Program-made: the position numbers and the translations under genes
NCBI RefSeq assembly: GCF_001636845.1
Contig: NZ_LITT01000023.1
Span: 248,001 to 312,000 of the forward strand
Source: Clostridium ljungdahlii
GTDB taxonomy: Bacteria; Bacillota; Clostridia; Clostridiales; Clostridiaceae
Reading direction: 5' to 3'
DNA: 64,000 nucleotides
Notes under the pieces: model-generated
Database searches by the model: none
Seen by the model: the letters and a program-made list of their open reading frames with translations, nothing else
What the model was told of the DNA's origin: nothing
In this document: piece by piece, positions 17,893-40,498 of the stretch
How the letters are laid out: each line of letters starts with the position of its first letter
How positions within the stretch are numbered: position 1 is the first letter of the stretch

Positions 17893-18143
17893 AGAGTTTC
17901 TAAGTAGAAAGTTTACTTATAACAGCCATATACTAACAAATTTTATTACACTAAAAACTTTTAATAAGTCTAAAGCTTGGTATTTTGAAAACCTAAAGGT
18001 ACTTAGATAAACTCGTACCTCAAACACATCAAAGTACCTAAGGTTTTCTAAAATACCAAGCTAAGACTTATTTATAAAAGTTTTTAAATGTAATTTCAAT
18101 TTTGTTAGTATATTTTATGTATAAGGTAAAATTTCAATTAGAA
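17893..18143 (+). repeat. Long intergenic hairpin L2a (type A, full)
   Basis: About 250-bp imperfect palindrome after the M20 gene. The inner stem AGGTACTT-A-GAT / ATC-A-AAGTACCT carries the apical loop ACTCGTACCTCA at 18011-18022, on the strand of the upstream gene. Middle arms include AGTCTAAAGCTTGGTATTTT and AAAATACCAAGCTAAGACTT; outer arms include AAACTTTTAATAAG and ATAAAAGTTTTTAAAT. No ORF is plausible. Confidence 0.8.
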
Positions 18144-18273
18144 TATCTTATATAATATTATTTGCAAAAATAAACATATGTGTAAAATCTCTATGGAGTT
18201 TATATATGAAAAGTTCATTTATACTAATTTATATACTGACAAATTTAACTTAGAAAACCTATCTAGATTCTAT

Positions 18274-18522
18274 AACTTAAAAATCAACTTATACGCAGGC
18301 ATATTTTTACAATAATGAAGCTCTTTTAAATATTTTGCATATAAGTCTTAGAAAAAAATTTTTAAAAAATCTAGAACTTTTGAATTGTTTGAGGTACGAG
18401 TTTTCAAAAGTTCTCAGTATTTTTTTGAAATTTTTTCTTAGTCTTATCAAAATATTTAACGAGCTGAAGGTTGTAAAAAATATCCGGAGTATAAGTGATT
18501 TTTCGTTTATAAATCCTATAGG
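18274..18522 (-). repeat. Long intergenic hairpin L2b (type B, full)
   Basis: Second palindrome in the 17830-18527 gap, placed just after the stop of the minus-strand histidine kinase. On that strand the stem GAACTTTTGAA/TTCAAAAGTTC carries loop ACTCGTACCTCA (18401-18390). Outer ends show CTTATACGC…TTTTTACAATA and TTGTAAAAAATATCC…GTATAAG. Confidence 0.8.
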
Positions 18523-18527
18523 GATCT

Positions 18528-19742
18528 TTAACTCACCGGAAATATAACTTTAAAAGTAGATCCTTTACCTACAGTACTTGATACATCTATAGTTCCATTA
18601 TGTTCCTCCACTATGCATTTTGCAATGGAAAGTCCAAGCCCAAAATTACCCTGCCTATTTGATCTAGATTTATCAACTTTGTAAAATCTCTCAAAGATTT
18701 TATTTAGATGTTCTGGAGCTATGCCTTCCCCTGTGTCAGACACTATTATTTCAACTTTATTTTTTACCTTTTCTAAAGTTACTTTGATGGAGCCACCTTC
18801 AGGGGTATGTTTTATTGCATTGTCAATTAAGATAGTTATAAGTTGGTTGATCCTTCCCTCATTCCCTAAAAAAATTACATCCGGATGAATATCTGATAAA
18901 ATGGATATTTTATGTTTTGTGGCAACTGGTTCAAGAGGAACTACGGATTTAGTTACAGCGCTGCTTATGTCAAAAGAAGAAGTATCAAATCCGTTTTTAT
19001 GAGAATCTGATCTAGCAAGAAATAAGAGGTCTCCTATGAGTTTAGTCATTCGTGTAGTTTCAACCTTAATATTTTTAAGCCATTTATCCTGGCTTTCTAC
19101 AGTTTCATCTTTATTGTCTAGTACTATATCCAAATTAGTGGTTATAACTGCAAGGGGAGTTCGAAGTTCATGTGATGCATCTGCAGTAAAAGCTTTTTGT
19201 TTTTTCCAAGCATTTATAATAGGTTTTAAAGATATATTGGCAAGGAATAAGCTTATTATAAATACAAAAACGAGGCTTATTATATAAATTGTTACAGATA
19301 TAGTAATTAACCGACGCAGTACTTCATCATCGAAGGACTTATCTTGAAAAACCACAATAAATCCGTAGCTTTTAGGAACTTTAATATATCTTAAAATATA
19401 ATTTTCATATGTTGCAGTACCATTTGGCTTATTTTTTTTCAATATTTGTTCTAGTAGTTCTTTATAGTTTTTTTCAGACAATGGGGAATTAGGAGATATC
19501 TCTTCAATTTGATTTTTAAAATTTATTTTTATAAAAAAACTTTCAGAAGCAGTCATGTTTTTGTCGTGAGGCCTGGAGGGGGGGATATTTTCCATTTCAG
19601 CTGTTTTACTCATACGTATATAGGCAGAATGTTTAAAACTTGTGCTCATAAGTATATATATGCCTGAAAATATCGTTATTAATACCAAACTTGTAAGTAT
19701 TAAATTGATTAAAATAAGTTGCATTTTTAATTTACGAAACAT
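18528..19742 (-). CDS. Sensor histidine kinase
   Basis: 404-aa membrane kinase. TM1 is at ~8-32, an extracellular sensor region of ~110 residues follows, TM2 is at ~145-170, then HisKA with the phospho-acceptor in ASHELRTPLAV, and HATPase_c with DNAIKHTPEGGS (N box), VSDTGEGI (G1) and GLGLSIAKCIVEEHNGTI (G2). The linker after TM2 is short and no HAMP domain is obvious. It starts 4 bases after the paired response regulator, so the two form an operon. The facing glycosyl-transfer cluster could be its target, but the sequence does not prove it. A long hairpin follows its stop. Confidence 0.93.
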   Translation of the reverse strand: MFRKLKMQLILINLILTSLVLITIFSGIYILMSTSFKHSAYIRMSKTAEMENIPPSRPHDKNMTASESFFIKINFKNQIEEISPNSPLSEKNYKELLEQILKKNKPNGTATYENYILRYIKVPKSYGFIVVFQDKSFDDEVLRRLITISVTIYIISLVFVFIISLFLANISLKPIINAWKKQKAFTADASHELRTPLAVITTNLDIVLDNKDETVESQDKWLKNIKVETTRMTKLIGDLLFLARSDSHKNGFDTSSFDISSAVTKSVVPLEPVATKHKISILSDIHPDVIFLGNEGRINQLITILIDNAIKHTPEGGSIKVTLEKVKNKVEIIVSDTGEGIAPEHLNKIFERFYKVDKSRSNRQGNFGLGLSIAKCIVEEHNGTIDVSSTVGKGSTFKVIFPVS

Positions 19743-19745
19743 AAT

Positions 19746-20423
19746 TTAAACCTCTTTTAAGCAGTAGCCTATGCCTCTTATAGTTTCAATGACTACATTA
19801 CATTTTAATTCCCTTAATTTCTTCCTCAAATAGGAAAAATAAACTTCAATATTGTTATTCATCTCTATGTCGGAATCAAGTCCCCATACTCTATCTAGTA
19901 TCTGATCTTTAGTTAGAACTTGATTTTTATTACGCGCTAAAAGTTCTAGAAGTTGGGACTCTTTTGTAGTAAGTTTAGTTTTGTTACCATTGCATTGAAT
20001 TTCTCCCCTCAGTGGATCGAAAATTAGAGAGGACAGCTTGATGCTTCCATGTTGGATAAAATCTGTATGCCTTCTGCTGAGAGCCCTTATTCTAGCTAGC
20101 AGCTCCTCTTTAGAGAATGGCTTCACAAGATAGTCATCTGCTCCATTGTCAAGTCCTTCTACTCTATTTTCAATGGAATCCATGGCTGTAAGCATAAGTA
20201 CAGGGGTTTCAATACCCTTTTTTCTTATAAATTTTAAAATATCAAGTCCATTCTTTTCGGGAAGCATTCTGTCAAGTATTATCAAATCATATATTTCTGA
20301 TTCTGCCATTTCTTCGCCGGTGATTCCGTCGTAAGCTGCATCTACAACATAATTGTTTTTCTTTAAGATATAGACTAAGGCATCCGAAAGCATGACTTCG
20401 TCTTCCACTAAAAGTAATCTCAT
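19746..20423 (-). CDS. OmpR family response regulator
   Basis: 225-aa, full length. The receiver domain has the acidic pair in LLVEDEV, the phospho-acceptor Asp in DLIILDRMLPEKNG and the KPF motif in DYLVKPFSKEEL. The C-terminal winged-helix effector includes LTTKESQLLELLARNKNQV and ends in IETIRGIGYCLKEV. The gene is directly upstream of its kinase and divergent from the GT2-GtrA-GT39 cluster. The 319-base gap between them contains a large hairpin repeat. Confidence 0.95.
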   Translation of the reverse strand: MRLLLVEDEVMLSDALVYILKKNNYVVDAAYDGITGEEMAESEIYDLIILDRMLPEKNGLDILKFIRKKGIETPVLMLTAMDSIENRVEGLDNGADDYLVKPFSKEELLARIRALSRRHTDFIQHGSIKLSSLIFDPLRGEIQCNGNKTKLTTKESQLLELLARNKNQVLTKDQILDRVWGLDSDIEMNNNIEVYFSYLRKKLRELKCNVVIETIRGIGYCLKEV

Positions 20424-20568
20424 AATAAAAATTCCCTCCTTATATCTAATTATTATACTATAAATTATATGATTTTAAATTTAATTTACATTTATTATTA
20501 TTCTTTTAAGTTTCTTTTAAGGTTGAAACCTCAAAATAATAACTAAGCTAGATCGATAAAGTTTCTAA

Positions 20569-20729
20569 GGTATTTGAAAGAAAATAACAAGTCAAAGATG
20601 CGGCGGATATTTTTTATCAGACAAGGGGGTAGGTTCCGCAGATAGTGAATCCTATTTAAGGGTTCTACCGACGCAGTATGATAAAAAATAGGCTAGCATA
20701 CTGACTGGTTATTTCTTTGAAAATGCCTA
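20569..20729. repeat. Hairpin repeat H, full copy
   Basis: Outer arms GTATTTGAAAGAAAATAAC and GGTTATTTCTTTGAAAATGC pair; nested arms include ATTTTTTATCA and TGATAAAAAAT, with a further inner GGTAGG…CTACC stem. A shorter copy with the central ~100 bases missing lies at 21683-21742. It occupies most of the gap between the response regulator and the GT2 gene. Confidence 0.75.
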
Positions 20730-20751
20730 ACATTAAATTGAGGTGAATAAC

Positions 20752-21702
20752 ATGAATGAAAATCTAATGTATTCTATAGTAGTACCACTGTATAATGAGG
20801 AGCTAGTGATAGATGAAAGCTATAGAAGACTTAAAAAAGTTATGGACTCTACTTTAGAGAGTTATGAAATTATATTTATAAATGATGGAAGTAGTGATAA
20901 GACTAGGGAAAAGACGGAAAAGATATGTAATGAGGATAAGAACATAAGACTTATTAATTTTTCGAGAAATTTTGGTCATCAATGTGCTATAACTGCGGGA
21001 ATGGAAAACTCCATAGGGCAGGCTGTAGTTGTAATAGATGCAGATCTTCAAGACCCTCCAGAAGTTATTTTAGATATGATTAAGAAGTGGAAGGAAGGCT
21101 ATGATGTCGTCTATGGAAAAAGAGCTAAGAGGGAAGGAGAATCATTTTTCAAGAGATTTACAGCAAGGTCATTTTATAGACTATTAAAGAGTATGACTAG
21201 CATTGATATTCCTGTAGACACTGGAGATTTTAGACTTATAGATAGGAAAGTGTGCAATGCATTGAATTCACTACCGGAAAAAAACAGATATGTGAGAGGG
21301 CTTGTAAGTTGGGTTGGGTACAAACAGACCTTTGTGGAATTTGTAAGGCATGAAAGATTTGCAGGGGATAGTAAATATCCACTTAAAAAAATGCTGAAAC
21401 TAGCCTTTGATGGTATAACTTCATTTTCTTATAAGCCGCTTATGCTTGCTGGGTATTTAGGAGGACTGTCACTTTTTATTGGATTTGTTTCAATCATAGT
21501 TGAGTTTACAAAATGTATATTACAGAAAACAAGTATGGTAAATTTTGGGCTTGTAATATCAATTAATTTGATAATGTTTGGGACAATATTAAGCTGCATG
21601 GGTATAATAGGCCAGTATATTGGGAGAATTTTCGACGAAAGTAAGGGAAGACCTAATTATGTTATTGAAAATATAGTAAATAAGGCATTTGAAAGAAAAT
21701 AA
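20752..21702 (+). CDS. GT2 family glycosyltransferase (undecaprenyl/polyisoprenyl-phosphate type)
   Basis: 316-aa, DPM1/GtrB-like. The catalytic GT-A domain begins YSIVVPLYNEELVIDES and contains FINDGSSDKT and the metal-binding DADLQDPPE. Two C-terminal membrane helices (~230-255 and ~265-295) follow. Such enzymes charge a polyprenyl phosphate with a sugar, which a GtrA flippase exports and a GT39-type enzyme uses; those genes follow directly. The ATG at 20752 has GAGG eight bases upstream. The last six codons (KAFERK) lie inside hairpin repeat H copy 2, so the repeat supplies the C-terminus. Confidence 0.92.
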   Translation: MNENLMYSIVVPLYNEELVIDESYRRLKKVMDSTLESYEIIFINDGSSDKTREKTEKICNEDKNIRLINFSRNFGHQCAITAGMENSIGQAVVVIDADLQDPPEVILDMIKKWKEGYDVVYGKRAKREGESFFKRFTARSFYRLLKSMTSIDIPVDTGDFRLIDRKVCNALNSLPEKNRYVRGLVSWVGYKQTFVEFVRHERFAGDSKYPLKKMLKLAFDGITSFSYKPLMLAGYLGGLSLFIGFVSIIVEFTKCILQKTSMVNFGLVISINLIMFGTILSCMGIIGQYIGRIFDESKGRPNYVIENIVNKAFERK

Positions 21703-21742
21703 CAAGTCAAGGATGCGGCGGATATTTCTTTGAAAATGCCTA
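21683..21742 (+). repeat. Hairpin repeat H, internally deleted copy
   Basis: About 60 bp nearly identical to the two ends of the 20569-20729 element. It starts within the GT2 gene, contains its stop codon, and ends 10 bases before the GtrA ribosome site. Confidence 0.8.
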
Positions 21743-21764
21743 ATAGAAAGGAATGAATATAAAT

Positions 21765-22184
21765 ATGGATCAATTAATTAAAACTATGAATTTTATTTTC
21801 AATGGTAAACTAAAACTACTAAGTCGTTTTTCTGCCACTGGTGTCATAAATACAATAATAGATTTTGCTGTATTTACTCTTTGTCAAAGTGTATTTGGAC
21901 TGCATTATACAATAAGTCAGGTTATAGGTTATAGTTTTGGAGTTGTAAATAGCTTCATATTTAATAAAAAGTGGACTTTTGAATACAAAAGTTCTGGGAA
22001 AAAGGTGGTTCGAGAGTTATCTCAATTTGCAATGGTAAATTTGATTTCACTTGTTGCAACACTTGTATGTATGAAATTTTTAGTAAGTGATTTTAATTTA
22101 AACGTATATTTATCAAAAATAATTGTAACACTTATAGCTCAGGTAATAAATTTTTTATTATATAAAATATGGGTATTCAATTAA
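21765..22184 (+). CDS. GtrA family membrane protein
   Basis: 139-aa with four membrane helices, matching GtrA/DPMS_TMD in length. The N-terminal segment RFSATGVINTIIDFAVFTL and the middle NKKWTFEY motif are typical. GtrA proteins are thought to flip polyprenyl-phosphate-linked sugars across the membrane. The exact start is uncertain: AAAGGA touches an in-frame ATG at 21753 and lies 12 bases before the ATG at 21765, which is preferred. The gene sits between the GT2 synthase and the GT39 transferase. Confidence 0.88.
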   Translation: MDQLIKTMNFIFNGKLKLLSRFSATGVINTIIDFAVFTLCQSVFGLHYTISQVIGYSFGVVNSFIFNKKWTFEYKSSGKKVVRELSQFAMVNLISLVATLVCMKFLVSDFNLNVYLSKIIVTLIAQVINFLLYKIWVFN

Positions 22185-22195
22185 GGGGGAAATTT

Positions 22196-24376
22196 ATGAG
22201 GAAATTCAAATTTACAAAAGAAAGATTTGCACTATGTATAATTTTGGCCATATCTGTAATATTGAATTTTGCAAATTTAACTATAGAGGGATACGGAAAT
22301 GGATATTATGCTGCAGGTGTAAAGAGTATGCTCATGAATTTTAAAAATTTCTTTTTCGTATCATTTGACCCAGCAGGATTTGTATCTATTGATAAGCCAC
22401 CTTTAGGTTTCTGGATACAGACTATATCAGCCAAAATATTTGGATTTAGTGGATGGAGTATATTATTTCCCGAGGCTCTTGCCGGAGTAATTTCAGTTGG
22501 AGTTTTATATTATATAGTAAAAAGATCTTTTGGAGAGATAGCAGGACTTATATCAGCTCTATGCCTTGCAATAACACCAGTTTTTGTAGCAACCAGCAGA
22601 AATAATACTATAGACAATCTATTAATTGTGATATTACTTTTTGCCTGCTTATTTTTATCCAGAGCTGCTGAAGAAGGCAAGCTTAAATATCTAATAATAA
22701 GTTTGGCTCTTGTAGGATTAGGGTTTAATATAAAAATGCTTCAGGCATATATGATAGCTCCTGCTCTATATATAACTTATTTGATTTCTTCAGCTGTACC
22801 TGTAAAACAGAGGATAAAACATTTAATTATAAGTACACTTATTCTTGGAGTAATATCTTTATCCTGGGCAGCAGCAGTGGACTTGGTTCCATCGCAAAAC
22901 AGACCTTTTGTAGGGAGTAGTACAAATAACACCGTTACTGAACTTATATTTGGACATAATGGATTGGAAAGACTAAGTAGTACTAATGGTGGTATGGGTG
23001 GAGGACCATCAGGAAGGGTAGGAAAATCTCAATCTAAAGAATTTAAAAATAGTTTAGGCAAAAACCAGTCAAATTCACAAAGTGGAAACAGTAATGCTCC
23101 TAGTGGAATGACACATCTACAAAATTCAGGAAATTCCAATGGCTGGAGATTTGGAAGTTCTACTCAAGGTCCACAAGGAGGTCCGGGAGGTCAGAACGAA
23201 GGCAATTCCAAAAATCAAGTAGGAGGACCTAGTGGAAATGGACTTTCAGGAAGCTTTGGAGGACAAACAACAGCAGGTATTACCAGATTATTTTCTAAAA
23301 ATGTTCTGTCAGATCAGATAGTTTGGTTTTTACCTCTAGCTATATTTGGATTTATTGCAGCTGCAATAATAGAAAAACTTAAATTCCCATTTAATAATAG
23401 GAAAAAGCTAGATTTGGTATTATGGATATTATGACTGGTACCTGAATTCATATATTTCAGCTACACAAAAGGATTGTTCCATCCATATTATTTAACAATG
23501 CTAGCACCTCCCATTGCAGCTTTATGTGGAATAGGACTTACTTCCGCGTGGAAGCTATATAAGGAAGGCAGCATAAGATCATTGATAATGCCTGCAGCAT
23601 TTATTGCAGAAGGATTAGTACATCTTTTGATGTTATCTTATTTTACTACTACTATATCCACTACTATAAAATCTATAATTATAGCAGCTATCATATTGTG
23701 TTTTGGATCTGCTGCACTGCTTATAATATATAGAATATGTAAGAAAGGAAATTTGGATCAGGGTAATAATGAAAGGTTTGCTAAGATATTTACAACACTT
23801 GCCCTTGTAGGAATTTTGGTAACACCTGCTATCGGTTCTGCTGCTGCTATAACCCACAGCTTAAGTTCTTTGCCTGCTGCAGGATTGGAGCTCCTGTCAA
23901 ATAGTAAATCAGGAAATTCCATGATGATGGGTGGGCAAAACAACAGTAAGAATTCACAGCTTATAAAATTCCTTGAAAGTCATACTTCAAATGAAAAATA
24001 TGCTCTTGTAGTTTCCAGTTCTGCTTCTGCTGAAGACATAATAATTGAAAGCGGCAAAAGCATAATGGCCCTTGGAGGTTTCTCAGGATCTGATAAGATA
24101 CTTTCCTTAAGTGAATTTAAACAAATGGTTAAAAAGGGTGAGGTAAGATATGTACTTACGGGAGGTATGGGAGCAAGAGATTCCCAGGATATAATGAATT
24201 GGATCCAGAAAAATGGAAAAGCTGTTTCAACTACTGAATGGAAAGATACTGCTAATTCTCAAGCTCAAAAAAGTGTAAATTCTAATAATAAAAAAGACAA
24301 TAGTAGTTTCCAGCATCAGGGAATGGGTGGCATGAACAATGAAACGCTGTATGATTTAAAAGGCACTGTAAAATAG
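22196..24376 (+). pseudogene. GT39/ArnT-like membrane glycosyltransferase with in-frame TGA
   Basis: One continuous frame of ~726 codons is interrupted only by TGA at 23432-23434. The first half has the catalytic loop region (YGNGYYAAGVKSML, DKPPLGFWIQ) and about eight membrane helices; the second half resumes with FIYFSYTKGLFHPYYLTMLAP, the family's usual continuation. The TGA stands where a Trp (TGG) would fit. Residues ~265-370 form a Gly/Ser/Asn/Gln-rich insertion. The enzyme would move a sugar from a polyprenyl carrier to a surface acceptor. The start at 22196 follows GGGGGAA. Readthrough, a point mutation or a sequence error are possible; no Sec insertion element was recognised. Confidence 0.85.
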
Positions 24377-24381
24377 ATGTA

Positions 24382-24629
24382 GAGTTTCTTGATTGAAAGT
24401 AACCTTATACAAAGCATGTAATGACAAATTTTAGCACTATAAAAACTTTTGACAAGTCTAAAGCGAGGTATTTTGAAAATCTAAGAATCTTAGATAAACT
24501 CGTACCTCAAACAATATCTAAGCTCCTAAGATTTTCTAAAATACCTCGCTAAGACTTATGGAAAAGTTTTTAAAAGTGCTTTCAATTTTGTCATTACATT
24601 TTATGTATAAGTTTAAATTTCAATTGGAA
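24382..24629 (+). repeat. Long intergenic hairpin L3a (type A, full)
   Basis: Begins 6 bases after the GT39 stop. Outer arms ATGTAATGACAAA / TTTTGTCATTACAT, middle AGCGAGGTATTTTGAAAATC / GATTTTCTAAAATACCTCGC, inner CTTAGAT / ATCTAAG, with loop ACTCGTACCTCA at 24498-24509 on the coding strand. Confidence 0.82.
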
Positions 24630-24644
24630 ATTATACATAAGTTT

Positions 24645-24893
24645 TCTAATTTAAAAATTATCTTATGCGTAGAAATATTTTTACAATAATGAAGCACTTT
24701 TAGATATTTTGTGTATAAGTCTTAGCAAAAAAATTTTAAAAAATCTAGAACTTTTGAATTGTTTGAGGCACGAGTTTTCAAAAGTTCTCAGTATTTTTTT
24801 AATTTTTTTGCTTAGTCTTATCAAAATATCTAACGTGCTGAATGTTGTAAAAATATTCGAAGCATAAAGCAATTTTTTACTTAGAAACTCTAT
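24645..24893 (-). repeat. Long intergenic hairpin L3b (type B, full)
   Basis: Tail-to-tail with L3a. On the minus strand the stem GAACTTTTGAA/TTCAAAAGTTC carries loop ACTCGTGCCTCA (24775-24764), one base different from the other copies. It is the only full copy whose loop strand does not match the gene just upstream. Confidence 0.8.
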
Positions 24894-24923: not shown

Positions 24924-24974
24924 TAAGGTGAAAATTAATGTTGTAAAATAAAATTTAATAAATAATAGTATAGG

Positions 24975-25155
24975 TTTAATTGCATTTAATTAAAAGGGAA
25001 TCAGGTGGAAATCCTGAACTATCTTGTAGCTGTATTAGGTGAATTTAAGTAAGACAAGCCACTTGTAAATAGGGAAGGCATACTTAAATGATGAAGCTTA
25101 AGTCAGAAGACCTGCCTATATAATAGGCCATTAACTCTACAAGTGATAGGGGGCA
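24975..25155 (+). promoter_or_regulatory. Cobalamin riboswitch upstream of hemA
   Basis: Conserved blocks appear in order: GGGAATCAGGTGGAAATCC, TGTAGCTGTATTAGGTGAA, GCCACTTG, GGGAAGGC and the B12 box AGTCAGAAGACCTGCC. A strong terminator follows at 25200-25229. Cobalamin binding should stop transcription into hemA-hemL, the first steps of the tetrapyrrole path that leads to B12. Confidence 0.92.
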
Positions 25156-26505: not shown

Positions 26506-27780
26506 ATGAGAAATGATGATATATTTAATGAATCCAAATCATACATGCCAGGAGGAGTAAATAGTCCTGTTAGAGCATTTAAAGATGTGCCTTTGAATCC
26601 ACCTGTTATAAAGAAGGGAAAAGGAGCTTATATCTATGATGAGGATGGTAACAAATACATAGATTTTGTATGCTCCTGGGGGCCTATGATTTTAGGACAC
26701 TGTGATGATGATGTGGTAAAGGCTATAAAGGATACAAGCGAGAATGCTATATCTTTTGGTGCTACTACAGAGCTTGAATTGGAGCTTGCAAAATATGTAT
26801 GTACCACTTTAGATAATGTAGAAATGCTTAGAATGGTAAATTCAGGAACAGAAGCAACTATGAGTGCAGTAAAGCTTGCTAGAGGATATACTGGAAGAAA
26901 TAAAATAATAAAATTTGCAGGCTGCTATCATGGCCATTTTGATGATTTTTTAGTAGAAGCAGGTTCTGGAGTCATGACAGAAGGAATTCCAGGAAGTGCT
27001 GGAGTTCCTGGGGACAGTGTAAAAAATACTTTAATAGCTAGGTATAATGATCTCTCTAACGTGGAGAAGATTTTTGAGAAGCATGGTAAAGACATTGCAG
27101 CAATTATAGTAGAACCAGTAGCAGGAAACATGGGCGTAATTCCTGGAGATGCCAATTTCTTAAAAGGACTTCGCAGTATTTGTGATAAAAATGGAAGCTT
27201 GCTTATTTTTGATGAAGTAATGAGTGGATTTAGGGTAGCCTATAAAGGAGCCCAGAGCATTTATGGAATAAAACCGGATATAACTACTTTTGCAAAAATT
27301 ATAGGTGGAGGTCTTCCTTGTGGGGCTTATGGGGGAAGAAAAGAAATAATGGAAAAACTTTCACCAATGGGACCTGTCTATCAGGCAGGAACAATGTCCG
27401 GAAATCCTCTTGTAATGGCTGCAGGAATTGCAACTTTAAAGAAAATGCACGACAATCCTGAATACTATGCACATCTTGAAAAATTGGGTGCAAAATTGGA
27501 ACAGGGTATAAAGGACATAGCAAAAAAGAAAGGCATAAATGTTGTAGTAAATAGGTGCGGAGCAATGTTTGCTATATTCTTTACTAAAGATTCAAAAGTT
27601 AGAAATTATGAAGATGCTAAAAAATGTGATACTGCTCTTTTTGCAAAATATTTTCAGCATATGATAAGTAAAGGCATATATATTGCACCTTCTCAATTTG
27701 AAGCTATATTTTTAAATGTGAAGCATACTGAAGAAGATATTGATAAATTCTTAGAGGCATTCAGCACATTTGAAGCCTAG
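26506..27780 (+). CDS. hemL: Glutamate-1-semialdehyde 2,1-aminomutase
   Basis: 424-aa PLP-dependent class III aminotransferase, full length. It has the N-terminal signature [12 protein letters not shown], the PLP phosphate-binding [16 protein letters not shown], the cofactor-Asp region [12 protein letters not shown], and Lys264 in [12 protein letters not shown] as the Schiff-base lysine. It turns glutamate-1-semialdehyde into 5-aminolevulinate. It is translated after hemA in the same transcript and followed at once by a long intergenic hairpin. Confidence 0.97.
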
Positions 27781-27785
27781 AGTGT

Positions 27786-28033
27786 AGAGTTTCTAAGCAA
27801 AAAATAAACTTATGCTCCGAATATTTTTACAAACACAAATACGTTAAATATTTTGATAAGTCTAACCAAAAAATTTTGAAAACCTAAAACCTTTTGAAAA
27901 CTCGTACCTCAGACAATTCAAAAGGTCTAAGTTTTTCTAAAATTTTTTACTAAGACTTATATGCGAAATATTTAAATGTGTTTGTTTATTGTAAAATATT
28001 TCTACGCATAAGTTTATTTTTAAGTTAGAAACT
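27786..28033 (+). repeat. Long intergenic hairpin L4 (type B, full)
   Basis: Directly after the hemL stop. Inner stem ACCTTTTGAA/TTCAAAAGGT with loop ACTCGTACCTCA at 27900-27911 on the coding strand; middle arms GATAAGTCTAACCAAAAAAT and ATTTTTTACTAAGACTTAT; outer ends AAACTTATGCTCCGAATATT and AATATTTCTACGCATAAGTT. Confidence 0.82.
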
Positions 28034-28049
28034 AAACTTTACAGCTTGA

Positions 28050-28215
28050 AAATTAAGACAAATTTGCACATATCAATAGATTATTAGTAACTCAATTTTT
28101 GTTTTTACCTCATTGCCACTTTTGAAAGGACCAATTCTTAGGTATAATGTTTTTATCAATTTTAGTGTCATGAAATTTGTCAGCATATTTTGGTATGACT
28201 TGAAATTTCTACTTA
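28050..28215. repeat. Partial type-A end of the long hairpin family
   Basis: ATGAAATTTGTCAGCATA and the trailing TTTCTACTTAGAA match the outer right part of type-A copies. The conserved loop is absent. It fills the rest of the gap between convergent hemL and galU. Confidence 0.5.
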
Positions 28216-28223
28216 GAACTTTC

Positions 28224-33570: not shown

Positions 33571-33604
33571 ATACACTAAAGAAAAACTTAAGAAATCATT
33601 AAGT

Positions 33605-34300
33605 TTAATCTTTCATCTTAAAACCTATTCCCCAAACGGTATGTATGTATTCTGTGTCCGGATCAATATTGGCCATTTTAGAGCGAAGGTTGCTCATATG
33701 CACATTTATGGTGTTATCATCGCTTATAAATTTATCTTTCCATACATGTTCAAATAAATTAGTTTTTGTAAATACTTTTTTAGGGTAAGACATTAGAAGT
33801 TCTAATATACAAAATTCCCTTATAGTTAATATCACCTCCTGAGAATTTATAAAAACTTTGTGATTTTCCCGATCTAAGGTCATATTCTTATAGGTTAATA
33901 TGTTTTGTTTTTCATTTGAGTTTGAAAATATCATATATCTTCTAAGTTGGGAACAAACTCTTGCCAGCACTTCTTCTACATCGAAAGGTTTTGATATGAA
34001 ATCATCTGCGCCTAGTTTTAAGACTTCAATTTTTGTTTCTTGAGCTGTTTTTGCAGATATTACAATGACAGGCATAGTTTTAACCTTTCGTATTTTTTCT
34101 ATAAGCTTTTCGCCTGTAATGCCAGGAAGCATCAAGTCAAGTAAAACTAGCTGAAAGTCATATTTTTCAATGCACATTTCAGCTTCAGTACCTGAAAATG
34201 CCCCACGTACATTATAATTGTTTTTTTCTAGTATTCTGCATAATAACTTATTTATATCTGTATCATCTTCTACTACTAAAATGTCTATATTTTTGTTCAT
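33605..34300 (-). CDS. OmpR family response regulator
   Basis: 231-aa. The receiver has VVEDDTDINKLLCRIL, phospho-acceptor LVLLDLMLPGITGE and DDFISKPFDVEEV. The winged-helix effector has LTIREFCILELLMSYPKKV and ends HTVWGIGFKMKD. It is the first gene of the minus-strand cluster with the ABC transporter and kinase, and by analogy activates the transporter operon when envelope-active compounds are sensed. GGAGGAATAACT precedes the ATG. Confidence 0.94.
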   Translation of the reverse strand: MNKNIDILVVEDDTDINKLLCRILEKNNYNVRGAFSGTEAEMCIEKYDFQLVLLDLMLPGITGEKLIEKIRKVKTMPVIVISAKTAQETKIEVLKLGADDFISKPFDVEEVLARVCSQLRRYMIFSNSNEKQNILTYKNMTLDRENHKVFINSQEVILTIREFCILELLMSYPKKVFTKTNLFEHVWKDKFISDDNTINVHMSNLRSKMANIDPDTEYIHTVWGIGFKMKD

Positions 34301-34358
34301 AGTTATTCCTCCAGAGTTTTTGAGTTAAGACAATTATAACATTTTTAGATAGGATGTA

Positions 34359-34387
34359 TTGACATAATAAATGGTCACGGCTATAAT
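34359..34387 (+). promoter_or_regulatory. SigA promoter of the met operon
   Basis: Consensus TTGACA (34359-34364), 17-base spacer and consensus TATAAT (34382-34387). Confidence 0.88.
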
Positions 34388-34411
34388 TAAAAGCATAAAT
34401 TAAATATAAAT

Positions 34412-34522
34412 CTTGAACTTATCAAGAGTGATTGAGGGAACGGGCCCTATGAAATCCAGCAACCAGTACATTATGTGTATAATGGTGCTAAATCCTGCAG
34501 CGAAAGCTGAAAGATGAGAGAA
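34412..34522 (+). promoter_or_regulatory. SAM-I (S-box) riboswitch
   Basis: The S-box blocks are present in order: CTTATCAAGAGTG, GAGGGAACGGGCCCTATGAA, CCAGCAACC, GGTGCTAAATCCTGCAGC and GAAAGATGAGAG. A terminator follows at 34537-34569. Binding of S-adenosylmethionine should stop transcription into the methionine transporter genes. Confidence 0.95.
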
Positions 34523-34536
34523 ATTTTGAGTTAACC

Positions 34537-34569
34537 AAGTCTGAGATTTTTCTCGGGCTTTTATTTTTT
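34537..34569 (+). terminator. S-box terminator
   Basis: AAGTCTGAGA pairs with TCTCGGGCTT (with G-T pairs), followed by TTATTTTTT. Confidence 0.85.
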
Positions 34570-34599
34570 CTTAAAATTGATATGGGAGGTTAAAGAATA

Positions 34600-35556
34600 T
34601 TGATAGATATTAATAATGTAGGCAAAAGTTTTAACAATAAAAGTGTGCTGAAAAGTATAAATCTTCATATACAAGAAGGTGAAATATTTGGAATAGTTGG
34701 TCACAGCGGTGCTGGAAAATCTACACTTTTAAGATGTTTGAATGGTCTTGAAAGCTATGACACAGGAAGCATAAAGGTAATGGGTAAAGAAGTAAAGGAC
34801 TTAAAAGGTAAAGAAATAAGGACTTTTAGAAAAAACTTGGGAATGATATTTCAAAATTTTAATTTATTAAACAGAAAAAATGTATATGATAATATCTCAC
34901 TTCCACTTGAAGTCTGGGGATTAGAAAAAAGTAAAATAAAAACAAGGGTAAAGGAATTGTTAAATTTAGTAGGCCTTAGCGATAAAGCAAAGAGCATGCC
35001 ATCTGAATTAAGTGGTGGGCAAAAACAAAGAGTAGCTATTGCAAGAGCCTTGGCACTAAATCCAAGTATACTCCTTTGTGACGAAGCTACATCTGCCCTT
35101 GACCCAAATACTACCAAGTCAATACTTGAGCTTTTGAGAAAAATAAACAATGAATTTAAAATAACAATAGTAGTGGTAACCCATCAAATGGAAGTTATAA
35201 AAGAAATATGCAGTAAAATCGCCATTATTGATGAAGGTGAAATCAAAACTTCTGGAAATGTAGAAGAAATATTTTTAAAACCAGGGAAAAATCTAAAGAA
35301 GCTGCTTGGAAATGATAGTTTACTTCCAGATGAAGGTATAAACATAAGAATATTCTTTCCTAAGGAAATAAGCCAGGACAATTTAATAACCTCTATGGCT
35401 ATAGATTTGAATATAAAATTTTCTATAGTATGGGGAAAACTTGAAAGATTCCGCAGTGATGTTTTAGGAAGCTTGGTTATAAATGTAAATGATAAAGACA
35501 AGGAAGGTATATGCAATTATCTTTCTTCAAAAAATGTTAACTGGGAGGTAGAGTAA
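34600..35556 (+). CDS. metN: Methionine ABC transporter ATP-binding protein
   Basis: 318-aa ATPase with Walker A GHSGAGKSTLLRCLNGLE, signature LSGGQKQRVAIARAL, Walker B ILLCDEATSALDP and the H-loop VTHQME. The C-terminal ~75 residues form the NIL domain that binds methionine and inhibits transport in MetN. The start is TTG at 34600, ten bases after GGGAGG. Control by an S-box riboswitch supports methionine uptake. metI follows 2 bases later. Confidence 0.95.
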   Translation: MIDINNVGKSFNNKSVLKSINLHIQEGEIFGIVGHSGAGKSTLLRCLNGLESYDTGSIKVMGKEVKDLKGKEIRTFRKNLGMIFQNFNLLNRKNVYDNISLPLEVWGLEKSKIKTRVKELLNLVGLSDKAKSMPSELSGGQKQRVAIARALALNPSILLCDEATSALDPNTTKSILELLRKINNEFKITIVVVTHQMEVIKEICSKIAIIDEGEIKTSGNVEEIFLKPGKNLKKLLGNDSLLPDEGINIRIFFPKEISQDNLITSMAIDLNIKFSIVWGKLERFRSDVLGSLVINVNDKDKEGICNYLSSKNVNWEVE

Positions 35557-35558
35557 AC

Positions 35559-36215
35559 ATGGGATTTAGTGAAACATTTCAGGAAATACTACTTCCTGCT
35601 ATTGGACAAACGTTTTATATGGTTATAGTTTCTACAATACTTGCAGTAATTATAGGATTCATACCTGCTATTTTGCTAGTTGTAACTGAACCTGGTGGAT
35701 TAAAGCCTAATAAAGTAGTCTACAAGATATTGGATGCAGTAGTAAATTTATTGAGATCATTTCCTTTTATAATACTTATGATAGCAATCTTTCCTTTTAC
35801 AAAGCTTATTGTCGGAAAAACCATAGGTACTACAGCAGCAATAGTTCCTATTACAATAGCAGCTGCACCTTTTGCATCGAGAGTAATTGAATCTTCACTT
35901 AAAGAGATAGATCCGGGAATAATAGAAGCTGCAAAATCTTTTGGCGCAAGTAATATGCAGATAATATTTAAAGTTATGATTAAAGAAGCACTTCCATCTA
36001 TAGTGCTTGGTATAACACTTACTGTAATAAGTGTAGTTGGATGCTCAGCTATGGCAGGTACAGTAGGCGGAGGTGGACTTGGAGATGTGGCAGTAAAGTA
36101 TGGATATTACAGATTTCAGACTGACATAATGGTATACACTGTAATAATACTAATAATTTTTGTACAGGCACTTCAAACTATAGGAAATCTTATATATAAA
36201 AAGCTTAACAAATGA
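35559..36215 (+). CDS. metI: Methionine ABC transporter permease
   Basis: 218-aa permease with five membrane helices and the EAA-type loop EAAKSFGASNMQIIFKVMIKEALP reduced here to its range ~125-148. It forms the membrane channel of the MetNIQ importer. The usual third gene, metQ for the substrate-binding lipoprotein, does not follow; the next 456 bases are non-coding and the next gene is a GntR regulator. The binding protein must be encoded elsewhere. Confidence 0.95.
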   Translation: MGFSETFQEILLPAIGQTFYMVIVSTILAVIIGFIPAILLVVTEPGGLKPNKVVYKILDAVVNLLRSFPFIILMIAIFPFTKLIVGKTIGTTAAIVPITIAAAPFASRVIESSLKEIDPGIIEAAKSFGASNMQIIFKVMIKEALPSIVLGITLTVISVVGCSAMAGTVGGGGLGDVAVKYGYYRFQTDIMVYTVIILIIFVQALQTIGNLIYKKLNK

Positions 36216-36289
36216 TTATTTGTTTGGTAAAGTAATTATTGTAACGGACTAGGAGTAATTGTAGACTAAAATGTTTTTAAAAAGTTCAA

Positions 36290-36400
36290 AGTTTAAATAT
36301 CAAAGTTCAAATAATGATGATTTCTTTCGTACCTCAGAAAATCTATAATTTTAATATTTCCGACGTTAGGAGGAAAAGTATCATTATCTGTTATTTATTC
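36290..36400 (+). repeat. Degenerate trace of the long hairpin family
   Basis: CGTACCTCA at 36328-36336 matches the conserved apical loop of the L family, and weak complementary arms (ATAATGATGATTTC / AAGTATCATTATC) surround it. Position, after metI and on its strand, also fits the family. Confidence 0.35.
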
Positions 36401-36430
36401 TTTGTTATTTGTTCTTTAGTAATAAATTAA

Positions 36431-36485
36431 AAAGGTTATTGTGTAATGAACAAGAATGTATTATACAATAGCTTTTATTTTTTTG
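36431..36485 (+). terminator. Intrinsic terminator after metNI
   Basis: AAAGGTTATTGTGTAAT pairs with ATTATACAATAGCTTT, then TTATTTTTTT. Confidence 0.75.
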
Positions 36486-36612
36486 TATATGATTTGTTTA
36501 GTTGAGCTTTGCTTCAATGGTGCTGCATTTTAGATTTTCTATAGTGTTAGCATAGGAAAATCATCTATAACTTTCAACTCTTAATTCTCCACAAAAAAAT
36601 GTAAAAAAACTA

Positions 36613-36657
36613 TTGCACATGTTTTCTATTTGTTATATATTATATATAACAAATAGA
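36613..36657 (+). promoter_or_regulatory. Promoter and palindromic operator of the GntR gene
   Basis: TTGCAC (-35, 36613-36618), 17-base spacer and TATATT (-10, 36636-36641). A perfect 33-bp palindrome at 36625-36657 (arms TCTATTTGTTATATAT) covers the -10 and start region. This suits autorepression by the YtrA-type regulator encoded 15 bases downstream. Confidence 0.8.
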
Positions 36658-36671
36658 AAAGGAGGGACGCC

Positions 36672-37058
36672 ATGTTAGTACAAATAGATTTTGAATCGGA
36701 AATGCCTATATATGAACAGCTTAGGAGGCAGATAATAGAAGGAATAGCTTCTGGTAATCTGAAATTAGGAGAGAGCCTTCCTTCTGTAAGACAACTGGCA
36801 GAAGATATTGGAATAAATCTTCATACAGTAAACAAAGCATATAATGCGTTAAAAGCAGATGGTTACTTGAATGTAGATAGGAGGACAGGGGCTGTAGTAA
36901 GTGGAACATTTCCTGAAAGTACGGAGGAGTTCGACAAAAAACTCAAGGAAGAATTTACTTACTTGATATGTGAAGCTCATTTAAGGGGAAAAAAAATAGA
37001 GGATATTTTGAATCTGTGTTCTGATATATTTAAAAAATGTATTAAAATAGATGAATGA
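36672..37058 (+). CDS. GntR family regulator, YtrA subfamily
   Basis: 128-aa. The GntR winged-helix domain (IYEQLRRQIIEGIASGNLKL… and LPSVRQLAEDIGINLHTV…) is followed by a short helical tail of ~50 residues, typical of YtrA-type regulators that lack a ligand domain. The gene has its own promoter with an overlapping palindrome, and is followed 25 bases later by a membrane-protein gene that it probably controls. AAGGAGG lies 8 bases before the ATG. Confidence 0.92.
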   Translation: MLVQIDFESEMPIYEQLRRQIIEGIASGNLKLGESLPSVRQLAEDIGINLHTVNKAYNALKADGYLNVDRRTGAVVSGTFPESTEEFDKKLKEEFTYLICEAHLRGKKIEDILNLCSDIFKKCIKIDE

Positions 37059-37083
37059 GTTATTATAAGGTGGGTGAAGTTAA

Positions 37084-38220
37084 ATGAAAGATAATTTGTT
37101 TATGTGTATATATTTATTTTTTATTTTTGTAATAATACTTGTAATTAATATGTTAACTCCTAAATTTACGAGAAAGGAGATTGTCTTTGGGGTGAGAATT
37201 CCTGAAGATAAGATTGATTCAGATGAAATTAAGTATATAGAAGCAAAATTTGTAAAGAATAATTTAATTATAGGAATTCCCTTTATTATTTTATTTAGTG
37301 TGTTAAATTATAGTTTTTTAAATGTAGGTATGATTTTGTTTACTACTTTTGCATTTACATTTATAATTTTTCTAATATATCTTATATCAAACAGGGCTAT
37401 GAAAAATCTTAAATTACAAAAGTCATGGTTTCAAGGCAAAAAACAGGTTGTAACTGTAGACACTAGTTTTTCTAGAAGCAAAAGCAATATGCTTGTGTCA
37501 GCTTGGTTTTTCTTAATACCTGCAGCTATTATTATAGTAAATATAATTTTAGGCTATATGAATTATGACTCTCTACCTTATAAAGTCCCTACACACTGGG
37601 ATTTTTCCGGTAATGTAACAGGATATCAATTTAAATCCAGGTTTCTAATTTGGGAAATGCCAATTACTCAGATTTTTACTACTTTTATGTTTTTTATAAT
37701 CTACAAGGGAATAGGATGGTCAAAACAGCAGATTAGTTCTATAGATCCAGAAGCATCCATAAAGAAAAATAGTATATTTAGAAGAAGTTGGTCCATGTAT
37801 ATGGTTATCTTTGCTGTAATGACCAATCTTTTACTAACCGTTGCTACTGTTCAGAGATTTAGAGTATTTAATGTGAGTAATACTTTTTCGAATATTATAA
37901 TATTAGCTTTTGCATTAGTTACAATTTTAAGCAGTATAGTTTTAGCTTTTAAGATTGGACAGGGAGGAAGTAATATAAAGTTTAAAAATGATGGTGAAGA
38001 AAAAGGCAAACCTGATTTTGGAGATAAAGACGATGATAAATGCTGGGTACTGGGCAATACTATATATTATAATAAGAATGATCCATCCTTATTTGTGGAA
38101 AAAAGGTTTGGCATAGGCTGGACGATAAATGCAGGCAGACCACTTGGAATGGCCGTGTATATAGGAATTATTGTGATTATAATTGTAACTATAGCTTTTG
38201 CCGTATCTAGTGGAAAGTAA
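37084..38220 (+). CDS. DUF1648/DUF5808 membrane protein
   Basis: 378-aa polytopic protein. It has an N-terminal helix, an FGVRIPEDKIDSDEIKYIE segment, a DUF1648 block (YDSLPYKVPTHWDFSGNVTG) and a C-terminal DUF5808 block (YYNKNDPSLFVEKRFGIGWT) before a last helix. About nine helices in all. DUF1648 occurs in SdpI-like immunity and resistance proteins, and genes of this sort are often paired with YtrA-type GntR regulators, as here. A role in envelope stress or peptide resistance is inferred only from this pairing. Confidence 0.8.
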   Translation: MKDNLFMCIYLFFIFVIILVINMLTPKFTRKEIVFGVRIPEDKIDSDEIKYIEAKFVKNNLIIGIPFIILFSVLNYSFLNVGMILFTTFAFTFIIFLIYLISNRAMKNLKLQKSWFQGKKQVVTVDTSFSRSKSNMLVSAWFFLIPAAIIIVNIILGYMNYDSLPYKVPTHWDFSGNVTGYQFKSRFLIWEMPITQIFTTFMFFIIYKGIGWSKQQISSIDPEASIKKNSIFRRSWSMYMVIFAVMTNLLLTVATVQRFRVFNVSNTFSNIIILAFALVTILSSIVLAFKIGQGGSNIKFKNDGEEKGKPDFGDKDDDKCWVLGNTIYYNKNDPSLFVEKRFGIGWTINAGRPLGMAVYIGIIVIIIVTIAFAVSSGK

Positions 38221-38237
38221 CAATTAGCTTTATAGGA

Positions 38238-38488
38238 ATTCTAAGTAAAAAGCCTTATACTTCGGATATTTTTTACAACCACAAGCTCGGTTAAATATTT
38301 TGATAAGTCTAAGTAAAAAATTTAAAAAAAATACTGAGAACTTTTGAAAACTCGTACCTCATACAATTCAAAAGTTCTAAGTTTTTTATAGATTTTCCAC
38401 TAAGACTTATATACAAAGTTTTTAAATGTACTTGTTTATTGTAAAAATATGCCTGCGTATAAGTTGTTTTTTAAGTTAGATAATCTAT
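38238..38488 (+). repeat. Long intergenic hairpin L5 (type B, full)
   Basis: Starts ~17 bases after the DUF1648 gene. Inner stem GAACTTTTGAA/TTCAAAAGTTC with loop ACTCGTACCTCA at 38350-38361 on the coding strand; outer arms CTTATACTTCGGATATTTTT and AAAAATATGCCTGCGTATAAG. Confidence 0.82.
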
Positions 38489-38494
38489 AGAGGA

Positions 38495-38735
38495 GAGATT
38501 TTAATTGAAAATTATTATTATATACTTTGGAATAAGTTGACTTTAAAACTAGAAATTACTTAAAGTTTCACATTTACAAGTTGATGTGTTAAAATATTTT
38601 ATATAAGTGTATTATAAATGAATTTCAGTATGGTAGGCTAATTGAAGCTCTATACAAGCATTTTAAATGTGAAACTGAAATTTGTCACTACATACTTTGT
38701 ATAAGTTAACTTTCAATTTGGGGAATCTATAATTA
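38495..38735. repeat. Diverged type-A relative of the long hairpin family
   Basis: Ends match type A (TTTGTCACTACATACTTTGTATAAGTTAACTTTCAA at ~38678-38720) but the centre differs; CACATTT…AAATGTG arms are still complementary. The conserved loop is missing. It fills the gap up to the aminotransferase gene. Confidence 0.5.
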
Positions 38736-38762
38736 CCAATTGAAGAAAAGGGGGCAATTTCT

Positions 38763-39947
38763 ATGATATCCAATAAAATGAAAGAGCATGTATCTAAAAG
38801 TTCTATAATAAGAGCTATGTTTGAAGAAGGAAAGAGACTAGCTTCAATTTATGGGGAAGAAAATGTATTTGACTTTAGTTTGGGAAATCCAAATGTAGAA
38901 CCACCTGAGGCTATAAAAAAGGCTGTAAATGAAATAATGTCTGAGGAATCTCCAAATATGGTTCATGGTTATATGAGCAATTCAGGTTATGAGGATGTAA
39001 GGGCTAAAATTGCAGAAAACATAAATAAAAAATACAATTTGAAGCTTACTGAAAATAATTTGGTAATGACCTGTGGTGCAGCAGGGGGACTTAATATAAT
39101 TTTCAAAACTCTTTTGAATCCAGGAGATGAAGTTATTACATTTTCACCCTTCTTTGGGGAGTATGAGAATTATGTAGATAATTTTGGAGGGAAGCTTGTA
39201 ATAGTACCTTCAAATACAGAAACTTTTGAGCCAGATTTAAATGCATTGGAGCAATCTATAAATGCTAAAACAAAGGCAATAATCATAAATTCACCAAATA
39301 ATCCTACAGGAATAATTTATTCGGAAAAGCTTATTAAAGATTTATCACAGCTTTTGGACAAGAAACAGGAACAACTTAGTACCAGTATATACTTAATTTC
39401 AGATGAACCCTACAGAGAAATAGCTTATGATGGAGTAAAGGTTCCATACATATTGAATTATTATAGAAATTCTATTGTAGGCTATTCTTATAGCAAATCC
39501 CTTTCGCTTCCGGGTGAAAGAATAGGATATGTAGTTTGCAGTAGTGATATGGATGATTTTGAAGATGTGATGCCTGCCCTTAATGTGGCAAATAGAATTT
39601 TAGGTTTTGTAAATGCACCGTCATTATTTCAAAGAGTAATTGCAAAATGTTTGGATTCAAGCGTAGATATGAATATATATAAGAAGAATAGGGATTTACT
39701 ATACAATCATCTTGTTAAAATAGGATTTTCTTGTGTTAAGCCTGAAGGTGCCTTTTATTTATTCCCTAAGTCATTAATTGCTGATGACGTTGAATTTGCA
39801 AAGGAAGCAAAGAAATTTAACCTACTAATAGTTCCAGGTTCATCCTTTAAATGTCCTGGTTACTTTAGACTTTCTTATTGTATTTCTTATGATAAAATAG
39901 AGAAATCTTTAGACAGTTTTGATAAACTTGCAAAGAAGTACCTTTAA
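38763..39947 (+). CDS. PLP-dependent class I/II aminotransferase
   Basis: 394-aa fold-type I enzyme, near the usual length for AspC-like aminotransferases. It has the N-terminal FDFSLGNPNVEPP, INSPNNPTGIIYS, ISDEPYREIAYDG, the Schiff-base lysine in SYSKSLSLPGERIGYVV, and a C-terminal substrate-Arg region GYFRLSYCIS. It swaps amino groups between an amino acid and a 2-oxo acid; the substrate cannot be named. It is monocistronic, flanked by members of the long hairpin family. GGGGGC lies upstream of the ATG. Confidence 0.92.
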   Translation: MISNKMKEHVSKSSIIRAMFEEGKRLASIYGEENVFDFSLGNPNVEPPEAIKKAVNEIMSEESPNMVHGYMSNSGYEDVRAKIAENINKKYNLKLTENNLVMTCGAAGGLNIIFKTLLNPGDEVITFSPFFGEYENYVDNFGGKLVIVPSNTETFEPDLNALEQSINAKTKAIIINSPNNPTGIIYSEKLIKDLSQLLDKKQEQLSTSIYLISDEPYREIAYDGVKVPYILNYYRNSIVGYSYSKSLSLPGERIGYVVCSSDMDDFEDVMPALNVANRILGFVNAPSLFQRVIAKCLDSSVDMNIYKKNRDLLYNHLVKIGFSCVKPEGAFYLFPKSLIADDVEFAKEAKKFNLLIVPGSSFKCPGYFRLSYCISYDKIEKSLDSFDKLAKKYL

Positions 39948-39956
39948 ATATAGCTC

Positions 39957-40022
39957 CTAAATAAAAATAAACTTATGCTGTGAATAATACTCCTACGCAT
40001 AAGCTTATTTTTTAGTTAAAAG
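39957..40022. repeat. Short type-B hairpin (outer arms only)
   Basis: AATAAACTTATGCTGTGAAT and CTACGCATAAGCTTATTTTT pair, matching the outer ends of type-B copies with the whole centre deleted. It serves as a likely terminator after the aminotransferase. From 40023 to 40231 no feature was recognised. Confidence 0.6.
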
Positions 40023-40231
40023 CTATATGTAAATCGTTAATTCTAGAACTTAGTCCTTCTAAATTGCTAATTGGGTTTTAAATTTTACCATTTATATTAT
40101 AGATCATAAAGTTTAAAGTTAAATCTATAATTACTTAAAATTGCTTATTATAAATCTCGGATGGATTTATAACTTTAGCATTTAAATCAAGTTGGCAATT
40201 TGGATAAGTTTAATTGTAGAGTTAACTATCT

Positions 40232-40498
40232 ATAAGGTATCCTAGTTTGAAATTTGAACTTATACCCGAAAATAATGCTGACAAAATTGAAGCACACTTA
40301 AAAACTTTTTTTATAAGTCTTAGTGAGGTATTTTAGAAAATCTTAGAAGCTTATATATGTCTGAGGTACGAGTTTATATAAGCTTCTTTAGATTTTCAAA
40401 ATACCGAACTTTAGACTTATAAAAAGTTTTTAGTATGATGAAATTTGTCAGCATATGAACTGGTATATGTCAACTTTCAATCTAGAAATTCTAATATG
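40232..40498 (-). repeat. Long intergenic hairpin L7 (type A, full)
   Basis: Abuts and slightly overlaps the stop of the minus-strand SleB gene. On that strand the inner stem AGAAGCTTATATA/TATATAAGCTTCT carries loop ACTCGTACCTCA (40383-40372). The middle arms AGTGAGGTATTTTAGAAAAT and ATTTTCAAAATACC pair, as do AAAAACTTTTTTATAAGTC and GACTTATAAAAAGTTTTT. Confidence 0.82.

Follow-up and report, generated by a model that had tools for sequence, protein, structure and literature searches.

Long non-coding hairpins with a shared tip module, possibly mobile, at gene ends in Clostridium ljungdahlii and its relatives

A 64,000-nucleotide stretch of Clostridium ljungdahlii (assembly GCF_001636845.1, contig NZ_LITT01000023.1, positions 248,001 to 312,000), here called the window, carries seven long hairpin elements of about 255 nt each that share an apical loop. 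The genome to which the window belongs (G000) measures 4.36 Mb; other genomes and loci are cited by similar handles where they must be told apart. All seven copies predicted earlier from these letters are present: the loop AAACTCGTACCTCARACA is matched seven times at up to 3 mismatches against 0.04 expected, and none of 100 shuffles reached seven. Minimum free energies of the elements run from -67.5 to -94.0 kcal/mol, with z-scores from -7.6 to -14.7 (30 mononucleotide shuffles each). They are non-coding: no open reading frame (ORF) of at least 80 aa overlaps them, except for one shared stop codon. The elements, with ends set by fuzzy end matches, and the remnants found in the window are as follows.

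17892 to 18149, plus strand: type A hairpin, loop at 18009-18026 (+), sense to the gene at 16660-17829
18264 to 18518, minus strand: type B hairpin, loop at 18386-18403 (-), sense to the gene at 18528-19742 (-); convergent partner of the preceding element
24380 to 24635, plus strand: type A hairpin, loop at 24496-24513 (+), beginning 4 bases past the last stop base of the gene at 23474-24376
24638 to 24892, minus strand: type B hairpin, antisense to its neighbours and paired with the element before it, loop at 24760-24777 (-) with core GTGCC; lies directly upstream of a cobalamin riboswitch
27785 to 28036, plus strand: type B hairpin, loop at 27898-27915 (+), directly past the stop of the ORF at 26506-27780, which we take to be hemL-like
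38233 to 38487, plus strand: type B hairpin, loop at 38348-38365 (+), past the stop of the gene at 37084-38220
40217 to 40493, minus strand: type A hairpin, loop at 40358-40375 (-); the TAG at its end doubles as the stop codon of the ORF at 40491-41252 (-), and its low end is uncertain, the profile match beginning at 40229
3380 to 3599, no single strand: decayed remnants, a type B right end at 3380-3434 (+) and a type A copy with its centre deleted at 3442-3599 (-), both profile matches (E 6e-5 to 8e-15)
38661 to 38735, minus strand: type A left-end remnant, a profile match convergent with the 38233 copy
39974 to 40031, plus strand: type B right-end remnant, a profile match convergent with the 40217 copy

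In six of the seven copies the loop is sense to the gene that ends before it, the exception being the copy at 24760, and it is this copy that carries the single-base core change (GTACC to GTGCC); the original prediction had described both points correctly. The loop at 38348 deviates at the R position of the motif given below.

Two outer types had also been proposed, and clustering of the copies in G000 does separate A from B (clusters of 30 and 51, with four odd copies). Both share the ends TATAGAGTTTCTAA ... TTAGAAACTCTATA, the loop and a mid-stem site with CTAA on both arms, hence A opposite A; inverted ends of the TATAGAGTTTCTAA type are present in the ljungdahlii group. The types are not independent, as they are the usual neighbours in convergent pairs: 17 of the 18 close pairs in G000 are convergent and join A with B; in the exceptional pair (L019) both loops point the same way, with 182 bp between them. 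All 22 pairs closer than 600 bp in G031 face each other, among the matches listed. Two further repeats were seen beside the elements. An inverted repeat, GGTGCCAGGCACC...GGTGCCTGGCACC, lies at 17829-17881 between stop codon and element, with a similar tip in G003 (670500), and an AT-rich repeat with TATAGAT ends (TATAGATAGTTAACTCTACAATTAAACTTATCC...) trails several type A copies (L001 around 4190; window around 40050-40216).

The count across the genome and its relatives that had been proposed showed a high-copy and uneven family. The exact core CTCGTACCTCA occurs 76 times in the genome and its reversed control not at all; at up to one mismatch, ACTCGTACCTCARACA occurs 91 times in G000, 74 in G003, 87 in G005 and 8 in G019, with no match in ten other genomes of the genus. 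Flanks were taken for all 76 exact sites, and 85 loop copies (up to 2 mismatches) were scored inside them, a set that leaves out loops elsewhere with changed cores. Among the matches listed (80 of 92 stretches), the exact loop sits in hairpins in C. ragsdalei, C. thailandense, C. magnum, C. rhizosphaerae and one Clostridia metagenome-assembled genome, and a Proteus match has no hairpin. When 720 kb of the sister genome G003 was folded in 300-nt windows and hairpins were listed at -70 kcal/mol or below, 16 of 20 with at least 87 pairs about the apical loop had the exact ten-base core; of the other four, those at 379900 and 353900 are family copies with the loop changed or deleted, and those at 591600 and 577300 are unrelated. 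A covariance model was run over 391 genomes of the class; built from one type and limited to scoring 10 candidates in each genome, it found G000 and G019 and, with a weak match, G057. Six viral contigs held one tip pattern, and none held the loop of the window.

Covariation of the stems, claimed from the seven copies, was upheld in a larger set. In 23 aligned type-A-like cores, 92% of cells pair and 21 of 35 pairs have changed on both sides, and 65 both-side changed cells compare with 19.1 in shuffles, none of 500 reaching 65; these counts lean towards the structure used, because it is the fold of one sequence among the 23, with two pairs omitted that were paired in only 4 and 5 rows. RNAalifold returned no pairs on a 40-sequence mixed alignment, possibly because arms of different types are one base out of register. 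Covariation of this kind favours a host-selected structured RNA, in which the hairpin in the 3' untranslated region (UTR) would be a regulatory or stability module and a conserved protein or small RNA would bind the internal loop AAACUC/UCARACA. Stems under selection for RNA pairing should tolerate G-U above A-C, and they do not. Distinct one-sided changes led to G-U 198 times and to A-C 209 times (386 and 544 when counted in cells), the ratios by type being 62/56 for A, 66/61 for B, and 50/64 and 20/28 for the C. thailandense and C. magnum types, alongside 245 distinct double changes that restore Watson-Crick pairs. The inference to RNA alone is therefore weakened, though not removed, because unselected copies would dilute a G-U signal. 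The missing preference suggests arm-to-arm correction of a DNA palindrome together with neutral decay of copies. The original argument from paired changes to a structured RNA thus stands as regards covariation, while RNA is not singled out by it.

Location relative to gene ends provides the second body of evidence; genes were taken from our own ORF caller, which is weak in GC-rich genomes. Of the 85 G000 copies, 53 have a sense stop 95-165 nt to the left of their loop centre, and 2 have an antisense stop at the same distance to the right. The corresponding counts are 27 vs 1 of 36 in G003, 28 vs 1 of 41 in C. ragsdalei, 14 vs 0 of 33 in C. thailandense and C. magnum, and 4 vs 0 of 5 in G019; G000, G003 and C. 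ragsdalei share many of these sites, and in pairs the partner fills the right side. Forty copies from seven sets, partly the same ones, gave 27 sense and 4 antisense stops at 95-185 nt. At 80-190 nt the counts were 19 vs 2 of 29 in G031, 6 vs 1 of 15 in G142, 6 vs 0 of 7 in G105, and 15 vs 3 of 32 rows for the first 30 loci of 12 genomes. Twelve copies lie between divergent genes, against 85 between convergent genes.

When only single copies flanked by two co-directional genes were counted, 19 genome sets yielded 88 on the sense and 27 on the antisense strand (p 1e-8), with sites shared between G000 and G003; the ratio was 11 to 0 in G142, 12 to 0 in G003, 25 to 8 in G000 and 15 to 4 in C. thailandense. 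The proposed gene-end location and coding-strand bias are thus borne out, in unpaired copies and in other species as well; the bias is real and not absolute, and the 3'-end preference with the module on the coding strand holds in AT-rich carriers. Convergent pairing does not by itself account for the strand bias, since unpaired copies show it too; those in GC-richer genomes do not. The bias in unpaired copies, strongest in G142 and G003, also favours the host-selected RNA. A function tied to particular genes was considered too and found little support: among 27 gene ends of C. thailandense, C. magnum and G019, two have clear same-gene matches (55-82% identity) to element-bearing ends of the ljungdahlii group, which tells against the RNA reading.

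The loop is one variant of a wider module. Variant loops of G019 and G057 reveal the conserved part as AAACTCG, a tip and CTCARACA; in the window the tip is the triloop TAC, and elsewhere it is often a tiny hairpin. The earlier statement of a constant loop therefore holds for conservation, and the loop of the window is only one of the tip forms. The module pattern was matched in 60 of 200 genomes of the family. At least 4 copies, with a reversed control of at most 1, were counted in 31 of these 200 from the listing, and at least 4 copies in 11 of 398 genomes of a phylum sample (controls reaching at most 3), G000 being included both times; most genomes of genus g24, in the family set, fall outside the rule owing to high control counts, as the pattern is close to mirror symmetry. 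Thirty loci from 12 such genomes (32 copies shown, one pair twice) mostly fold into long hairpins whose stems are AT-rich or GC-rich around the same module, in loci of 27-60% GC. Among 34 distinct inner stems, which are not phylogenetically independent, 27 form at least 7 of their 8 pairs as Watson-Crick pairs, a level reached by 3.9% after swapping of arms. Across 223 copies, which were picked by the loop at up to 3 mismatches, the 18 loop positions vary by 0-0.24 bits, with R at 0.98 as the one exception, whereas the eight stem pairs that follow the first vary by 0.33-1.81 bits.

Since the tip is almost unchanged while the stems differ, something probably recognises the tip. The dispersed bacterial hairpins compared below are described from single species or genera, and here the tip is conserved across genera and families; such conservation amid turnover offers a concrete target for finding a recognising partner. 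Retention of the module from AT-rich to GC-rich genomes despite different stems again suits the host-selected RNA, and the absence of multi-copy arrays from most of the sampled phylum counts against it. A bolder extension, which we regard as unlikely, would see phylum-wide, strand-specific RNA hairpins at mRNA 3' ends, with an AAACUC/UCARACA loop, a tiny tip hairpin and one conserved putative partner, carried from gene to gene by machinery that reads RNA or the transcribed strand as a bacterial analogue of short interspersed nuclear elements. The conserved centre, whatever the arms, could also be a double-stranded DNA site for protein binding or recombination with incidentally palindromic arms, and inversion of pairs (described below) would fit this; such a site would have no need of arm complementarity over 100 bp, and the inversions exchange whole hairpins with no recombination at the loops, so that we find this account hardly credible.

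Copies from G000 and C. ragsdalei were mapped to stretches of G003, mostly one contiguous 720 kb. Each absence that was inspected proved to be an internal deletion, the change of a pair to a single copy, or a fusion or swap of copies. Two pairs of the window, 17892-18518 and 24380-24892, stand in the opposite order in G003, with B first, an inversion that we infer could arise by recombination between the shared inverted ends. In orthologous copies of sister species, 2 of 162 loop sites, 95 of 1975 stem sites and 275 of 2770 flank sites have changed (9 of 21 pairs kept), and loop and stem differ at p = 0.03, a comparison in which choosing the query copies by their loop favours a low loop rate. 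Ten of the 12 dropped pairs are only 0.51-0.62 identical, which suggests the other type at the site, as a type check confirmed for two window pairs; in the remaining two the loop is deleted at one G003 site. Swapping of types and inversion of pairs at the same site, with frequent deletion of hairpin centres, speak against a host-selected RNA, and together with the evidence already given they leave that explanation tentative and, on balance, rather unlikely.

Two other loci differ between these genomes in gene content or copy arrangement. A membrane-protein-like ORF lies between two elements in C. ragsdalei (L144, 5803-6618) and G003 (L168); at 28037-28220 of the window it is absent along with most of one element. 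At the loci L112 (4185-4447) and L031, an A/B pair of C. ragsdalei lies between genes that we take, from their sequence, to be pheS-like and pheT-like, and G000 has one fused hairpin there.

The elements are thus present in many copies, patchily distributed, conserved in their module, preferentially placed at gene 3' ends and often convergent, with centre deletions and pair inversions. High copy number, patchiness and the swapping of types speak for a mobile hairpin that spreads in trans, the second reading offered in the original prediction. A non-coding, mobile hairpin family resembling miniature inverted-repeat transposable elements (MITEs) and recognised by its tip module is therefore the interpretation we prefer, with a probability of roughly 0.52. 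Copying of the element would be driven by a putative trans-acting factor that recognises the module in a strand-specific way, whether in single-stranded DNA or in RNA. The arms would stay complementary mainly because one serves as the template for its partner when the DNA is replicated or repaired, and once inserted a copy would form a hairpin in the 3' UTR of the mRNA from the gene upstream. The earlier account was accurate about the feature, its place at 3' ends and its covariation, and its explanation was only partly right.

Several observations weigh against mobility. The strand bias is hard to derive from insertion alone. It also fails in some carriers: single co-directional copies number 1 sense to 2 antisense in G105, and 0 to 6 in G707, G705, G639 and G958 (50-60% GC), where gene calls are weak. 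Insertion itself was not seen, as 28 of the 40 mapped copies have a counterpart in G003 and no clean empty site with target duplication appeared in 10 plus six site comparisons, some of them shared. No autonomous copy turned up in passing, in the course of work that included no search aimed at one. The ends, judged by eye, look unconserved between lineages, unlike those of an ordinary MITE.

A mobilising partner was sought among 16 carriers. An IS200-type (Y1) transposase occurs in 14 and a reverse transcriptase (RVT_1) in 7, being absent from 9. The single-contig genomes G003 (74 loops) and G019 (91 module matches) have no Y1_Tnp match and no RVT_1; neither enzyme is therefore a universal present-day partner, and the partner may since have been lost. 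Within the window, the ORF at 62412-62960 (+), of 182 aa, has a Y1_Tnp match, lies over 20 kb away from any intact element and is presumably RAYT-like, judging from its length and motif. The frequency of Y1 genes and this ORF would suit a REP-like element whose single-stranded hairpins are the substrate of an IS200-type transposase (Y1, RAYT), as would hairpins that are extragenic and paired head to head like REP elements (PMC3733652). The two high-copy genomes devoid of Y1 speak against it, as do the ends, whose consensus is TATAG, with GTAG in some copies only; we consider it very improbable.

Insertion into terminator loops was tried as a target preference. It looks convincing by eye for single copies, and no clear excess over controls emerged. 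Values of flank complementarity lower than the control mean minus 2 standard deviations, taken at two offsets, were counted in 0 and 4 of 29 copies in G031 (expected 0.8 and 0.9), 2 and 1 of 16 in G142 (0.4 and 0.6), 0 and 1 of 8 in G105 (0.14 each), 0 and 1 of 13 in G019 (0.5 and 0.4), 1 and 0 of 8 in G200 (0 and 0.29), 3 and 0 of 36 in C. thailandense (1.4 and 0.8), and 1 and 0 of 10 in C. magnum (0.44 and 0.22). A location within a flanking stem was found for 16 of 85 copies in G000 against 14.5% of controls, and for 10 of 33 in C. thailandense and C. magnum against 20%.

The elements might themselves be two-way intrinsic terminators that are repetitive by chance. Their position directly past stop codons, the A- and T-runs in B-type arms and the copies that by eye lie within terminator-like stems (L095, L102, L110, L113, L120, L219) are compatible with this. 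A terminator scan of two stretches found 7 terminator-like sites, none inside an element, and hairpins like these lay beyond its reach, since it requires a loop of 3-8 nt and no fewer than 3 G-C pairs. As location inside a flanking stem is not general, and a two-way terminator needs neither a conserved loop nor a strand preference, this explanation appears quite improbable.

In line with the earlier statement that no named family with this loop was known, none of the 4227 Rfam models gave a gathering-score match to the window elements or to 12 loci with other tips. Under permissive settings all hits stayed below threshold, the best being MIR1888, a miRNA hairpin model (E 6e-4, 30.8 bits against a threshold of 72), a likeness that suggests a chance resemblance of long hairpins. 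The family is real and absent from Rfam, and its tip module is common to genera and families. No open-licence paper listed by the literature searches describes the module in its title or abstract opening, which does not establish its absence from print.

Comparison with other dispersed repeats was made by description; for EFAR the details are general background. ERIC and Correia/NEMIS elements are imperfect palindromes or hairpin-forming intergenic repeats, active as RNA; they differ from the present family in their hosts, and we know of no cross-genus loop conservation among them. Both are mentioned in PMC1590033 and PMC3049150. Among MITE-like hairpin repeats, Petrillo 2006 (PMC1590033) describes Efa from Enterococcus faecalis and Ype from Yersinia, which are, like the present elements, dispersed hairpins longer than REPs, near gene 3' ends, possibly co-transcribed and affecting mRNA stability. 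Efa/EFAR and Ype are there described in single species, whereas the module here is common to genera and families with differing stems. The short, non-coding, multi-copy (91 loops) elements of the window genome, with their TATAGAGTTTCTAA-type terminal inverted repeats, have the general features of MITEs. SPRITE, BOX and RUP of Streptococcus pneumoniae, small interspersed structured repeats, are likewise over-represented between convergent genes, SPRITE also near gene 3' ends; they differ in being almost wholly absent from other streptococci, and a widely conserved apical module is not among the features described in the accessible part of PMC3049150. REPs resemble the elements as extragenic palindromes that also form dimers, and are described in PMC3733652 as 20-40 bp long with a GTAG or CGTC tag, the GTAG ones being tied to Y1 transposases. 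The window elements differ from them: at about 255 bp and with no conserved tag, none is a 20-40 bp palindrome with GTAG or CGTC, and two high-copy carriers lack Y1.

C. ragsdalei is a gas-fermenting acetogen, and its approximately 90 hairpins, many directly after genes, could influence expression and engineering.

Secondary insertions were seen within element arms (L012 around 3957, L023 around 4060, L144 around 6890-7020), ending in ...ATCGGATAA, which we assume to resemble the right ends of IS605/TnpB-type elements. Four C. thailandense copies (L080, L123, L124 and L129) share a similar insertion, itself bearing a hairpin, at an identical place of the left arm. Rfam also places four riboswitches in the window (1080-1259, 24955-25133, 34416-34520 and 41260-41397), namely two cobalamin, one S-adenosylmethionine and one cyclic di-AMP riboswitch; the cobalamin riboswitch at 24955 has the B element just upstream.

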